Positions 54,621-64,000 of a stretch of DNA of 64,000 nucleotides are shown here, piece after piece. Positions within the stretch are counted from its first letter, which is position 1; every line of letters starts with the position of its first letter. The position numbers and the translations under genes were made by a program. This DNA is from Seleniivibrio woodruffii (GTDB lineage Bacteria > Chrysiogenota > Deferribacteres > Deferribacterales > Geovibrionaceae), in NCBI RefSeq assembly GCF_029267515.1, contig NZ_JAJUIS010000001.1:186001-250000 (forward strand). Direction: 5' to 3'. The notes below the pieces were generated by a model. It made no database searches. It was not told the origin of the DNA and saw only the letters and a list, made by a program, of their open reading frames with translations.

Positions 54621-56039
54621 ATGGAAATAGTTAAACAGACTGTCCCACTGCAGCAGCAGGACACACAGGGACAGGAGGTCACCCTTAAAGAGGGTGAGGA
54701 AACGAACGTTGAGGTGCTGAAACGACTTCGCGCGGGCGGATTTCTTCTGTCTGTGAAGGGAAAGATTGTGTCTGCCGAGCTGGATTTCGAACCTTCATCC
54801 AAAAACTTTCAGGCGGTTGTCACAAAAGCGCCTAACGGCACTGCACAGTTAAGATTTTTTCCGCCTCTGCCGGAAAAGGCTGCGACAGTTTTTACACAGC
54901 CCTCAGCGGCACAGCCTCAGGATACTTTCACAAAGCAGCAGCCAATCTCTCAGCAAACACAGAATCAGCAGTCTGCCGTTAAACCGGAACTCACAGACCT
55001 GACTCTGCCAAAGACAGTACCGCAGGCACCGCCCCAAAACTCTCAGCAGACCCAGGAGGTCAGACAGCAGATAGGTACCGCTGTTGTCAAAGACGTGCGC
55101 GTCCTCTCTCAAAAGACAGAAATTGTTCTTCCGCAAACAGACTCCCAGAAACAGGTTCAGAACTCTCCCACACAGACAAATATACGACCGGCAGTTGCAG
55201 TTTTAGACAACAACACTGCAACAGCTCTTAAAATTCCGCTGAACTCGCTCCCTGCGTCAGACGGAGAGCCTGTTGAAATTCATATTGTTAAAATGACTGA
55301 TAACGGAAAAACCCTTGTAAGCATAAAGGATACTCTTTTCGAAGTTAAGCTCGACCCTCAGCTTTTCAAAACACTCATAGCAGAAGCGAAGATTCAGACT
55401 GATTCCATCCTTCTGACTTTCTCAAAACTGCCGGTGGAAAATCTTAATCCGCAGTACGTTAAACAGCAGGTTTCAGGCTTTGATATTGAAAAGTTTATGC
55501 AGGCGTTCGGTAAGTTTACACGGACCGGCATGGAGGAAATGACTCCTCAGACACTGAAAGATGCTCTGAAAAACAGCGGACTCACCTTTGAAAACAAGCT
55601 GCTGAACGATCAGGATATCGCAGGAGACGAGAAATTCCGTGCACTGCTCACCGGGGACAGTCAGGCCAAAGACGGTATAACAAAGATGCAGCTCACCAAC
55701 CTTGTGATTGCAGACGGGGTTATGTCGTTTCTTAAAACAAAGGACGAAAATGTCGGGGATACTCTTTTTAAGCTGAAACGCGGCGCCGACGGCTCAAACA
55801 CTGTCTACGTTTCCACAAACTTTACAGAACTTGGGGAAACACTTATCGTCATCAAACAGGTTCAGAAAAATTTCACCGTATCAGTTAAAACTGAAAAAGA
55901 TATTTCGGAATACATGGACGATATCCATGTTGATAACGGCACGGTACGGTGGTTCAAATTCAGTAAACAGGATCTGCATGTAATGAACCCTTCCAAAGAG
56001 TTTACTGCGGATATGGGTAATTTTGAGGTGATTATTTAA
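54621..56039 (+). CDS. FliK-like flagellar hook-length control protein (putative)
   Basis: 472 residues. A small N-terminal globular part, then a long Gln/Pro/Thr-rich disordered region (about 85-200; QQPISQQTQNQQSAV), then a folded C-terminal half. The last ~110 residues (YVSTNFTELGETLIVIKQ, FTVSVKTEKDISEYMDD) resemble the FliK C-terminal (Flg_hook) pattern. Low-complexity middle plus folded C-terminus is the FliK plan, and the position in a flagellar cluster agrees. Sequence similarity is weak. It overlaps the MscS gene at TAATG. Confidence 0.6.
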   Translation: MEIVKQTVPLQQQDTQGQEVTLKEGEETNVEVLKRLRAGGFLLSVKGKIVSAELDFEPSSKNFQAVVTKAPNGTAQLRFFPPLPEKAATVFTQPSAAQPQDTFTKQQPISQQTQNQQSAVKPELTDLTLPKTVPQAPPQNSQQTQEVRQQIGTAVVKDVRVLSQKTEIVLPQTDSQKQVQNSPTQTNIRPAVAVLDNNTATALKIPLNSLPASDGEPVEIHIVKMTDNGKTLVSIKDTLFEVKLDPQLFKTLIAEAKIQTDSILLTFSKLPVENLNPQYVKQQVSGFDIEKFMQAFGKFTRTGMEEMTPQTLKDALKNSGLTFENKLLNDQDIAGDEKFRALLTGDSQAKDGITKMQLTNLVIADGVMSFLKTKDENVGDTLFKLKRGADGSNTVYVSTNFTELGETLIVIKQVQKNFTVSVKTEKDISEYMDDIHVDNGTVRWFKFSKQDLHVMNPSKEFTADMGNFEVII

Positions 56040-57258: not shown

Positions 57259-59025
57259 ATGTTTTTTACCAGCAAGTATAAAGTGACAATAGCCAATAAA
57301 AACATAGTTCTTGAGGTAAAGCACGGCTCAAATCTTTATAAGGTTCTGCGCGAACACGACCTTATCGAAAGGATGCTCTGTGACGGCAGCAGCCAGTGCG
57401 GAAAATGCAAAGTAAAGATAACCGGTCCCGATGTCAATAAACCTACAAAAAAAGAACGTCTTGTTCTTGCTGAAACAAGTCTGGACGCCGGCATCCGTCT
57501 CGCATGTCAATACTCAATCAAATCAGCCATAACTGTAGACACTCAGGAACCCACTAAACGCGAAAACGTTAATCCCGGCATAATCAGCATGAAAATTGTT
57601 AAAAAATCAGGTGAGGTTGAGGAGAACGAATTCAAGCCTTTCCTCAATTCAGATCTTTTTGTGAGCCAGAGCGAAACCTCTGCCACGGAGCCTGTAAAAG
57701 TTCCTGAAAACTATGAGCCGGAGCTTATAGTTGACGATTTAATTGATGAACCGCTCGACGAATATGTTCCTGAAGAACGTGTTTCACATGAAACATTTGC
57801 TTTCACACCACAACCCGAAAAAGTTGCAGCTCCCGTTGCCGAAGAAGCTCCTGAACAGTCCTCCAGGCAGGAGGATACTATAAAGATAATTTCCCATATA
57901 AACGGAAATCTTGTTCAGGATGATTCGTATTCCAACGACGGACTGCTGCTTATCCAGCTTCCTGACGGCATACAGTATTATCATTACAGTGCCGGAATTG
58001 GAAATATAGCTTCAAAAGGGATGATAAAGTCAAATGAGCGGCTTGAAACACTCCTTGAAAAACAGCTTGTTTCAGATTTCATTTACAACAACATAAACAT
58101 AAAAGATGTTGAGCGCGTAATCATAATGCTGGACGATTGTTATTTTGAAGGCAAAGAGCTCTTCAATCTTGTCATATACACGTCAATCCATATTGGGACT
58201 TTTCTCATAGAGGTACTCCAGCCAATACAGAACCACAGGGATATGGTGCGTTTCATGCGGTTTGTAAACCAAACACCCGGTAAGCGCCTGCTTATCCCGC
58301 TTGATTCCATGGAGAAGGCTTATTTCATGGACGAAGGCAACCTTTTTGAATTGGAATCCACTAACACAGGGTACGACGGGCTGCTCTCAATGAGCGAGTT
58401 TAACGGCAAAAACCCTGTGATAGGTCTAAGCGACGATCTTCTTGAAACAACTATTAAAGATAATTTTCATCAGCCGGATTCAATATCTTTTACAGTTTTT
58501 TTCCACACTGCGGTAATATTCATGAAAACCGGTCTCGCAGACAAACGTCTCCAACTTAGGGAACGTTCGGATGTTATGGATCTGATGCCCCTTGAGATTA
58601 CTGTTAAGCTCGGCAAACATGACGGACTCAAGCGTTTCAACATATACCGCAAGCAGGGATGCGACCTTTATATTGACCAGAACGCACTTAACAGTCTAAA
58701 CCGATTCCGCCTTTTTATAAGATCTGTGATAGGCTATGCGGAAAAACGCTTCAGCACCATAGACAACATAGTTTTTTATACACTGACAGACAGCGCCACA
58801 CTTGCAGACGACCTGCAGTCGTTGTCCGCGGTTCCGAAGAAGTATGAAAAACGTATAAAAACGTTCTCAGGTGATCCGTCAATATATGCTGTACAATTCT
58901 TTCAGGAGAAAGATATACAGGTATATTTCTCAAAAAGATTCGGCACCCACGAAGTTATTAACCTTGACGAGGATGCCGCGTTTATTGATATGCAGAAAGA
59001 GTGCGAGCAGAAGATTATTTCCTGA
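57259..59025 (+). CDS. [2Fe-2S] ferredoxin domain fused to a large unrecognised domain
   Basis: 588 residues. Residues 8-95 are a [2Fe-2S] ferredoxin-like domain with C41, C47, C50 and C83 (MLCDGSSQCGKCKV, LACQYSI), the spacing of the N-terminal domain of RACo-type and adrenodoxin-like ferredoxins. Residues 110-205 are an acidic/Pro-rich linker. Residues 205-588 form a folded domain matching nothing recognised. The ASKHA (DUF4445) domain that follows this ferredoxin in corrinoid-protein activators is not evident. A GGGGG Shine-Dalgarno precedes the ATG. It closes the plus-strand run and overlaps the opposing receiver gene by 11 bases. Cytosolic; function unknown. Confidence 0.82.
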   Translation: MFFTSKYKVTIANKNIVLEVKHGSNLYKVLREHDLIERMLCDGSSQCGKCKVKITGPDVNKPTKKERLVLAETSLDAGIRLACQYSIKSAITVDTQEPTKRENVNPGIISMKIVKKSGEVEENEFKPFLNSDLFVSQSETSATEPVKVPENYEPELIVDDLIDEPLDEYVPEERVSHETFAFTPQPEKVAAPVAEEAPEQSSRQEDTIKIISHINGNLVQDDSYSNDGLLLIQLPDGIQYYHYSAGIGNIASKGMIKSNERLETLLEKQLVSDFIYNNINIKDVERVIIMLDDCYFEGKELFNLVIYTSIHIGTFLIEVLQPIQNHRDMVRFMRFVNQTPGKRLLIPLDSMEKAYFMDEGNLFELESTNTGYDGLLSMSEFNGKNPVIGLSDDLLETTIKDNFHQPDSISFTVFFHTAVIFMKTGLADKRLQLRERSDVMDLMPLEITVKLGKHDGLKRFNIYRKQGCDLYIDQNALNSLNRFRLFIRSVIGYAEKRFSTIDNIVFYTLTDSATLADDLQSLSAVPKKYEKRIKTFSGDPSIYAVQFFQEKDIQVYFSKRFGTHEVINLDEDAAFIDMQKECEQKIIS

Positions 59026-59380
59026 AAAGCTCACTGATAGCCGCATCGAGGTCAGCGGCGCGAACAGGTTTGTTCAGATATATGCAGGCTCCAAGATTTT
59101 CGGAGTCCTTGAAGGATTTATACGAACCGAAAGCCGTTATCACTATCACTTTCGCAACGATCCCCCTTTCCTGCATCTTTTCCATAAACTCAAGCCCGTT
59201 GAGCTTGGGCATACGCAAGTCAGTCACAATTAGATCATAGCCGCCTTTCTCAGCCTTAAACAGTCCGTCCAGACCGTCCACAGCCATATCAACCTCATAA
59301 CCGCCCATTTTAAGTATCTCGGCATAACCGAGTCTGGTGTGTTCTTCGTCATCAACAACAAGAATTTTCAGATTTTCCAT
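59015..59380 (-). CDS. Stand-alone receiver-domain response regulator
   Basis: 121 residues, a single CheY-like domain: DD(E) at 10-12, phospho-acceptor D54 (LIVTDLRMPKLNG), T82 (IVITAFGS) and K104 (YLNKPV). No output domain. The ATG overlaps the stop of the tandem-Hfq gene (TAATG), so the two are made from one message. The sequence (VTDLRMPKLNGLEFM) is closer to NtrC-type receivers than to CheY at 43596. The cognate kinase is not adjacent; the orphan kinases at 13250 and 31151 are candidates. Confidence 0.93.
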   Translation of the reverse strand: MENLKILVVDDEEHTRLGYAEILKMGGYEVDMAVDGLDGLFKAEKGGYDLIVTDLRMPKLNGLEFMEKMQERGIVAKVIVITAFGSYKSFKDSENLGACIYLNKPVRAADLDAAISELFRK

Positions 59381-59904
59381 TATCTCTCGCCGTCATATTT
59401 AATAATTTCCCCTGTCTGATATATGGGGTATATGGTAGAAATCGTGTTTTTATATACGAGCTGCTGGCGACCTTCAAATGATGTCAGCAGAGTGTAGTTA
59501 TCGAAACCGATAAGGCTTCCGCGTATTTTAACTCCGTTAATCAGAAAGCTGACTATCGGAGAGCGGGATTTACGAACTTCGTTCAGAAAGATATCCTGCA
59601 TAGGCGGACGCGTGTGTTTTGGGTGTCTGCCCTGATGCGCGCTGTAATAGATTTTAGATATAAAGTCGATATCAACAACCGTCTTTGCAGCGGCAACTGT
59701 TGCAATGTCGTTTTTCGAAAGCAGAATCTTAATTTCAGCATCGTCCAGAAGGATATGGTATGGATCGAAATCCATCACTCTGCCTCTGAATCTTTCCTTG
59801 TTCTTCATTATAAACATGAGCGGTATCTTGCGCGTTCTTGCATTGTGCATAAACACAAATTCTATCTGCGCATGGAATGACGCTCCCGAAGCGGAATTAT
59901 CCAT
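59380..59904 (-). CDS. Tandem Hfq (double Sm-fold) protein
   Basis: 174 residues. The second half (about 102-160) is unmistakably Hfq: MQDIFLNEVRKSRSPIVSFL then INGVKIRGSLIGFDNYTLLT and LVYKNTISTIYP. It retains E. coli Q8, D9, R16, R19, G29, K31, G34 and K56; H57 is replaced by Asn. The first half (about 13-72) is a diverged second copy: ARTRKIPLMFIMKNKERFRG, VMDFDPYHILL and LLSKNDIATV. A basic/His-rich linker (HQGRHPKHTRPP) joins them. A GGGGAG Shine-Dalgarno supports the start. It is translationally coupled to a receiver gene. RNA binding as a pseudo-hexamer of three chains is inferred. Confidence 0.88.
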   Translation of the reverse strand: MDNSASGASFHAQIEFVFMHNARTRKIPLMFIMKNKERFRGRVMDFDPYHILLDDAEIKILLSKNDIATVAAAKTVVDIDFISKIYYSAHQGRHPKHTRPPMQDIFLNEVRKSRSPIVSFLINGVKIRGSLIGFDNYTLLTSFEGRQQLVYKNTISTIYPIYQTGEIIKYDGER

Positions 59905-60171
59905 GGAAACTCTCCCCTTTGATTGTATCTTAGCAGATTATAAATTGTTTATCCGTGTTTACAAGTTTTAATTTAATCCACATTGTTTATTTATGAAAAT
60001 TACGCCTTTTCTTTTAATGTTTATCCGGTTGAAAGTCACTGTCATGTTTTCAACATTTCTGTACAAGCAAAAATCCTTGACAAATTTGGCGTAAATCGCT
60101 TGTCAACAATTTCCAAATAGCTTATTATTACTACGACTAAATAAAAAAATATAAGAATAAGAGGAATGAGT
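59905..60171. other. Divergent intergenic region upstream of dnaN with DnaA-box-like sites
   Basis: This AT-rich gap between the tandem-Hfq gene and dnaN holds TAATCCACA (59974-59982; one mismatch to TTATCCACA). It also has two TGTTTATCCG sequences (near 59946 and 60018) and a TGTTTATTTATG (near 59984). An inverted repeat TTGACAA...TTGTCAA (60077-60106) precedes dnaN. The repeated TGTTTAT motif could be DnaA sites for dnaN control or part of an origin, but no dnaA gene is adjacent. The evidence is weak. Confidence 0.35.
60100..60128 (+). promoter_or_regulatory. Probable sigma-70 promoter of dnaN-recF-gyrB
   Basis: TTGTCA (60100-60105), a 17-base spacer and TATTAT (60123-60128), 44 bases before the dnaN ATG. 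The -35 box is within the right arm of the TTGACAA/TTGTCAA inverted repeat, a possible operator. Confidence 0.65.
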
Positions 60172-61277
60172 ATGCGTTTTAAGGCGGTTAAAGATGAAAT
60201 ATATCCTTTCATCCAATATGCTAACAACTTTACAAGCCCCAAAAACCTCAATACTATTCTGCAAAACATATATATAGAAGCAGAAGCGGACGGAGTTACA
60301 CTGCGCGCAACAGATATGCAGGTCGGTTTCTCCGGAAAACTTGACGTAAGCGTCGAAACCACCGGCATAGCTACTGTATCCGGCAAAAAACTTCTTGATA
60401 TCGTAAAAGAGATTCCAGACGGTTCTGTTATAGATTTCTTTTTCGACGGCTCAAAAATCAATATCAGTGCCGGAAGATCAAATTTCAAGCTCTCAACTAT
60501 AAGCCATGAAATTTTCCCGACAATGGCTGAAATAACTCCTGAGTACAGCCTCAAAATCAAAAGCGCTCTTCTTCTGGACCTTATAAAGAAAACCAGCTTC
60601 TGCATCTCTACAGACGCTTCAAAAATTGAATATACAGGTGCTCATCTTGCAGTTTACGGAAACAAGCTGGAAGTATCTGCAGCGGACTTCCAGAGAATAG
60701 CAACCAGCAGCATCACTTTTGACGATGAATACGCTAATGAATTCATCATCAATATACCCAGAAAAACTGTTATAGAACTTATTAAAATACTTGAACACGA
60801 TGAATATGTCGAAATTGACACAGACAGAAAGCAGATTATCTTCAAAATAGGAACGATACAGATTTATTCCAAGCTGATAGAAAAATACATTAAGAGTATT
60901 ACAAAACTGTTCTCCAATGAATTTCCTTTAGAGGCAAGACTCAAACGTTCCGAATTTCTCGATGTTATTAAACGTGTTTCAGCCATCACCAGCGAAATAA
61001 CTCACGGTGTGGTTCTGTCTTTCAAAGAAGACAGCCTCACTCTTTACAGCCTTGAAACTGAATACGGCGCAGGCAACGAAACGGTTGAAGACTATGAATA
61101 CAAAGGAAATCCCATTGATATAATTTTCAACTCAAAGCATATGGTCGAAATGATAAATAACATCGATACAGATTATTTTATCCTGAAAATGATTGCGGAT
61201 AGAAACCCTGCAGTCCTGCTTCCTGATACAGGAGAATATAAATATCTTGTGGTTCCTATTTCCATCAACAGGTTCTG

Positions 61278-61278
<1 letters not shown>
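60172..61278 (+). CDS. dnaN: DNA polymerase III sliding clamp (beta subunit)
   Basis: The ATG at 60172 (MRFKAVKDEIYPFIQ) is preferred to the one at 60166, because AGAGGA is then eight bases rather than two bases away. The 368-residue protein has three repeated clamp domains and ends VVPISINRF, close to the usual LMPMRL-type C-terminus. It tethers the polymerase to DNA. recF follows, sharing one base (TGATG). Confidence 0.97.

Positions 61279-64000
<2,722 letters not shown>

Follow-up and report, generated by a model that had tools for sequence, protein, structure and literature searches.

A tandem Hfq paired with a CheY-like receiver in the Deferribacterales, possibly a second Hfq under receiver control

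A gene in the Seleniivibrio woodruffii window (the whole stretch of DNA that was analysed, 64,000 nucleotides) encodes a chain in which two Hfq domains are joined, and this raises the questions of whether such a protein replaces a normal Hfq or supplements it, and what it could do in the cell. The original prediction for this locus, a 174-residue product encoded at 59380-59904, had both the coordinates and the length right. The open reading frame is located on the minus strand, where it runs from 59904 to 59380, and the plus-strand reading of the same segment has stops. The ATG at 59904 is preceded by a Shine-Dalgarno-like element, AAGGGGAG (59912..59919, minus strand), that was read from the sequence and has counterparts of the same kind in close relatives. 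A possible sigma-70 promoter, TTGTAA-16-TATAAT (59937..59964, minus strand), has 10/12 matches, in a region where promoter-like matches are no commoner than in shuffled sequences.

Two Hfq domains in one chain

The protein consists of an N-terminal Hfq copy (residues 12-76, 59677..59871), a conserved linker (residues 77-101, 59602..59676), a C-terminal Hfq copy (residues 102-161, 59422..59601) and a C-terminal tail, IYQTGEIIKYDGER (residues 162-174, starting from Y, 59383..59421), all on the minus strand. The Pfam Hfq profile (PF17209, cut-off 27 bits) matched it twice. The whole protein scored 115 bits, the C half alone 85.4 bits (E=2e-24) and the N half alone 34.5 bits (E=1.5e-8), all above the cut-off. 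When the profile of the N half was compared with that of the phylum's single-domain Hfqs, the probability was 96% (E=1.3e-9, 72 columns). When TIGR02383, the canonical Hfq equivalog (cut-off 61.7), was used, the whole protein and the C half passed with 91.4 and 71.2 bits, and the N half alone fell below with 24.5 bits. Nearly all PDB sequence matches were Hfq structures aligned to the C half, the best one being that of Caulobacter (3e-16).

In AlphaFold2 models of low confidence (mean pLDDT 59 and 54), run with ten sequences, each half was predicted to have a helix and five strands; the model of the chain, with a pLDDT of 59 and a pTM of 0.38, is too poor to place the domains relative to each other. 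In Foldseek searches with these low-confidence models, Hfq structures came first for both queries. With the whole chain, 60 residues aligned at about 1 Å, and the N half by itself gave about 2.3 Å with a TM on target of about 0.7-0.8. No departure from an Sm fold was seen at residues 13-72, where the low-confidence models have the same helix and five strands. The profiles, the predicted secondary structure and the fold searches support the earlier proposal of two Hfq/Sm domains in a single chain, a diverged one at the N-terminus and a better-kept one at the C-terminus.

The ratio dN/dS was at or near zero in the N, linker and C segments. Within genera, where synonymous sites are often saturated, dN was 0-0.08 in the three segments. 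All segments of the tandem Hfq are under strong purifying selection, and this holds for the linker and for the C-terminal tail with its EIIKY motif as well. Since the gene has 25 orthologs in the phylum and dN/dS is at or near zero, it is neither a chance open reading frame nor a pseudogene.

The tandem gene, the canonical hfq and the receiver gene

The survey included 51 genomes of the phylum Deferribacterota. The tandem gene was found in 25 of them, belonging to six families (f1-f5 and f8), and a MAG of Seleniivibrio, a genus of the Deferribacterales, encodes a protein identical to that of the window. All 25 genomes also have a single-domain hfq, and the tandem gene is therefore an extra gene and not a replacement. 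The genome of the window is no exception: its canonical copy is found on another contig, downstream of mutL-miaA, which is compatible with the earlier remark that the window holds no single-domain hfq and answers the question of replacing or supplementing in favor of the latter. The same position after mutL and miaA was found in most genomes inspected (gene names read from sequence).

No Hfq match, tandem or canonical, was obtained in families f6 and f7 (20/20 genomes, G029-G048), and these genomes have no ortholog of the receiver described below, an apparent joint loss of the Hfqs and the receiver. Genome G008, a draft with 92% completeness, has the canonical hfq without the tandem gene or the receiver, unlike its three congeners; these two genes either lie on a contig that is missing from the draft or were lost together. 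Family f10 has a single Hfq only. Family f9 has a single Hfq and a diverged 151-amino acid Hfq-like protein, which was considered as an ancestral tandem; it has a diverged C-terminal Hfq match only, and its N half looks Sm-like by eye, with no profile support. The genes for these 151-amino acid proteins (L072:5357-5812, minus strand, and L071:4398-4853, plus strand) adjoin an htpG-like gene and have no receiver gene adjacent. In plasmid and phage collections there was no tandem-Hfq ortholog among the matches listed, which were single Hfqs or the Sphingomonas tandem.

Directly downstream of the tandem gene is a gene for a CheY-like single-domain response regulator of 121 amino acids (59015..59380, minus strand; Pfam Response_reg, 5e-24), the ATG of which overlaps the tandem-Hfq stop codon (TAATG). 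In all 25 genomes the orthologous receiver gene comes next, with a spacing of -29 to +6 nucleotides from the stop. The acidic pair, the phospho-Asp (in the context TDLRMP here), the Thr and the Lys are kept in all 25 orthologs, and helix 1 opens with an invariant DDEEHTR.GY. A search of the 51 genomes at E<=1e-25 returned one match in each of the same 25 genomes that have the tandem gene and none elsewhere. Receiver orthologs from other families are 48-61% identical to that of the window, and the next-best receiver in the window's genome, which is rich in receivers (22 matches), is 36% identical. Because the two genes occur in the same 25 genomes and are always adjacent, they are inherited as a pair.

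Most other neighbours of the pair change between families in the ten genomes that were inspected, with gene names read from sequence. The upstream flank varies by family and includes dnaN, an ArsR-like regulator, lipid-synthesis genes, a pseudouridine synthase, pheT and others. The window itself has a run with dnaN and recF (60166-62309, plus strand) opening divergently beside the tandem gene, with gyrB next in close relatives. DnaA-box-like sequences (TTWTNCACA) number 15 in the window, versus 5.4 expected, and are scattered. A link with dnaN/recF or with a replication origin was rejected, this neighbourhood being confined to family f1. On the other side, at 57259-59025 on the plus strand, a convergent gene encodes a 588-amino acid protein with an N-terminal 2Fe-2S (Fer2) domain, weakly like corrinoid activation proteins. 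It was considered as a third member and rejected as part of the unit because it has orthologs in 46 of the 51 genomes; these include most genomes of the families that lack any Hfq, and in f2 and f3 the gene is not adjacent to the pair. Farther along, at 54621-56039 (plus strand), is a gene for a 472-amino acid protein with no Pfam match, with a mechanosensitive channel gene directly after it.

The tandem chain could act by joining mixed rings with canonical Hfq and tuning the specificity or amount of the latter, with a minor or unrelated role for the receiver. This is in keeping with the presence of canonical hfq in every genome that has the tandem gene and the absence of both from the 20 f6/f7 genomes. 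However, that joint absence may represent one or two events, and the invariant pairing with the receiver is left unaccounted for. We regard mixed rings as quite improbable.

Relation to known Hfq systems

Fused Hfqs are not without precedent, a point that the original prediction did not mention, nor did it mention the receiver gene. Zymomonas and six more species of the Sphingomonadales are reported to have a tandem Hfq, and a ring of three chains was already suggested for it (PMC2877685). This family (NCBIfam NF010691/PRK14091; Zymomonas mobilis ZMO0347) likewise has two Hfq domains per chain and a length of about 170-200 amino acids. Membership of the window's protein in it is ruled out by score and by tree. 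At a cut-off of 270 bits a Sphingomonas tandem protein passed NF010691 with 287.4 bits, while the window's protein reached 82.4 bits, its best stretch matching the first half of the model only. In the domain tree (63 rows and only 92 columns, too few for deep order), the Sphingomonas copies group with Caulobacter Hfq (96/76 and 98/85), apart from the Deferribacterales N copies (93/79) and C copies (92/88), which form groups of their own. In addition, both copies of the Sphingomonas protein (L073) keep KH at positions 56-57, unlike the Deferribacterales copies. The retention of KH and the grouping with Caulobacter Hfq point to an independent duplication. The Sphingomonas gene also differs in having no stand-alone receiver gene adjacent; it sits between a sigma-54 regulator gene and hflX and, judged from this locus alone, looks like an ordinary hfq for that reason. 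It is found in Sphingomonas parapaucimobilis on an 880-kb plasmid (L073:2860-3462, plus strand), and the same two flanking genes indicate that this replicon carries a normally chromosomal segment.

Within the phylum, a 2020 article drew attention to four Deferribacteraceae genomes with two Hfq-like proteins, commenting that these proteins may be paralogs (PMC7074383). The second of these proteins is very probably the product of the tandem gene; the passages found in that article do not describe a tandem structure, a residue loss or a receiver partner for it. According to the same article, Burkholderia Hfq2 is likewise a second, longer Hfq (175-216 amino acids) beside a canonical one (PMC7074383). 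However, Hfq2 has one Sm domain and an unstructured C-terminal extension, whereas the tandem Hfq has two Sm domains. The canonical Hfq of the window's genome (TIGR02383) has a homologous domain and shares Q8, D9, R16 and K56 with the C copy, but it is a single domain with H57 in place, its gene follows mutL-miaA, and it evolves more slowly from family to family than the tandem Hfq.

RNA contacts, ring architecture and a possible receiver output

Residue positions are numbered after E. coli Hfq on an alignment of the 25 orthologs. The C copy of the window has Q8, D9, N13, R16, K17, K31 and K56, and N in place of H57. The assignments made for this copy in the original prediction proved accurate throughout, corresponding to Q103 (Q8), D104 (D9), R111 (R16), R114 (R19), K126 (K31) and K152 (K56), with Asn at the position of H57 (N153). 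Across the orthologs, Q8, D9, N13, R16, F39, D40, Y55 and K56 are retained in 25/25, R17 is replaced by K in 25/25, and K31 and T61 are found in 22/25 and 23/25, respectively. Position 57 is N, S or T in every ortholog (H57 in 0/25), in contrast to the 17 single-domain Hfqs of the phylum in the same alignment, all of which retain H57.

The N copy of the window has Q8 changed to E, D9 to F, Y25 to I, G29 to K, I30 to E and H57 to N. Among the orthologs, E at 8 and F at 9 are invariant (25/25), and I at 25, K at 29, E at 30 and R at 31 are each found in 23/25. The motif NKERFRG, on what was once the distal face, is shared by 23/25, and K56 and F39/D40 are present in 25/25. By this alignment, the N copy has lost most of the RNA-contact residues of both faces, with K56 kept. 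From established Hfq structures, the changes should abolish the canonical A-rich and U-rich contacts. With respect to the proximal uridine pocket (Q8, F42, K56, H57), the C copy has Q8 and K56 in 25/25 and an aromatic residue at 42, without H57, and the N copy has only K56 plus Tyr at 42, short of a full pocket. The uridine pocket of the tandem Hfq is altered, not absent, which bears on function and not on homology.

Conservation in the linker and the tail is no lower than in the Sm strands: the mean entropies over the 25 orthologs are 0.72 bits for the linker, 0.56 for the tail and 0.75-0.99 for the strands. The C-copy helix is nearly invariant (0.17 bits). The linker, VDIDFISKIYY...H..RPP, partly predicted as a helix at 79-89 (AlphaFold2, low confidence), is invariant at 9 of its 25 positions, and EIIKY in the tail is invariant in 25/25.

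These features could be read in more than one way. The tandem Hfq could be mainly a protein scaffold instead of an sRNA chaperone, with a ring that docks on another machine and a receiver that controls the docking. The strong conservation of linker and tail, an N copy without RNA contacts on both faces and a C copy without H57 agree with this idea, and a precedent is found in Synechocystis, where pili require Hfq, which attaches to the PilB1 C-terminus (PMC4390875). That Hfq-type ring acts through a protein partner, but it is made of a single-domain Hfq and its partner is a pilus ATPase and not a receiver. Moreover, Q8, K56, the rim arginine/lysine and the residues of the distal site are kept in the C copy of almost every ortholog, which an RNA-free scaffold would not require, and a role mainly as a scaffold is unlikely. 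Alternatively, the protein could be a second Hfq of the usual kind, in which the fused dimer serves as a normal sRNA chaperone when conditions differ, while the co-transcribed receiver has its task elsewhere, perhaps in chemotaxis. The C copy is a good Hfq by profile and the genome is rich in receivers, but the strict one-to-one pairing with one receiver ortholog through six families, while most other flanks change, and the loss of H57 from all orthologs make this explanation improbable as well.

We propose, as a tentative reading with slightly less than an even chance of being right, that the tandem Hfq is an order-wide second Hfq of the Deferribacterales that forms a pseudo-hexameric ring of three chains and is gated by its dedicated receiver. 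A ring of three chains with two kinds of site, already put forward in the original prediction, is plausible, and N and C copies would alternate side by side in it. The C copies would provide three good sites for rim and A-rich (distal) RNA contacts and three altered uridine pockets (K56 kept, H57 changed to N, S or T), and the N copies, together with the conserved linker and the tail, would form a protein-binding surface. A different geometry, in which six chains stack one C-copy ring on one N-copy ring, giving a double ring of 12 domains whose N-copy layer docks proteins, is somewhat unlikely. The separate clades of N and C copies are what would be expected if each contacts its own kind, and the linker, at about 25 residues, appears to have the length for both arrangements; yet the predicted structure, with its pTM of 0.38, favors neither. 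As far as the sequences go, they would fit stacked or mixed rings equally well.

Gating in the three-chain ring would begin with a histidine kinase phosphorylating the co-made receiver. The phosphorylated receiver would then bind the tandem Hfq and change how this protein binds RNA or gains access to it, and a two-component signal would be converted into post-transcriptional control without a transcription factor. That a phosphorylated receiver switches RNA binding by a pseudo-hexameric tandem Hfq in this manner, giving two-component systems a direct post-transcriptional output across the Deferribacterales, is possible, with the weight of probability against it. The ring architecture, the RNA binding, the physical contact with the receiver and the gating are what we infer from the two domains, their residue losses and the invariant gene pair. 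Even this invariant adjacency may mean co-expression only.

The fusion itself has precedent, and gating by a receiver is a proposal. Full-text searches, which covered few subscription journals, found no receiver-Hfq pair in the literature, and we know of no case in which the activity of an Hfq is gated directly by a dedicated two-component receiver. The receiver partner makes the tandem Hfq more interesting than first thought: more than the fusion by itself, it is the invariant pairing that hints most strongly at its function. The two genes stay together in all six families, and in the genomes searched they were never found apart. Such a chain would form a natural asymmetric Hfq ring and offer a way of asking which hexamer sites have to stay intact, because half of them were altered by evolution and not by mutagenesis, and the canonical Hfq in the same cell offers an internal control.
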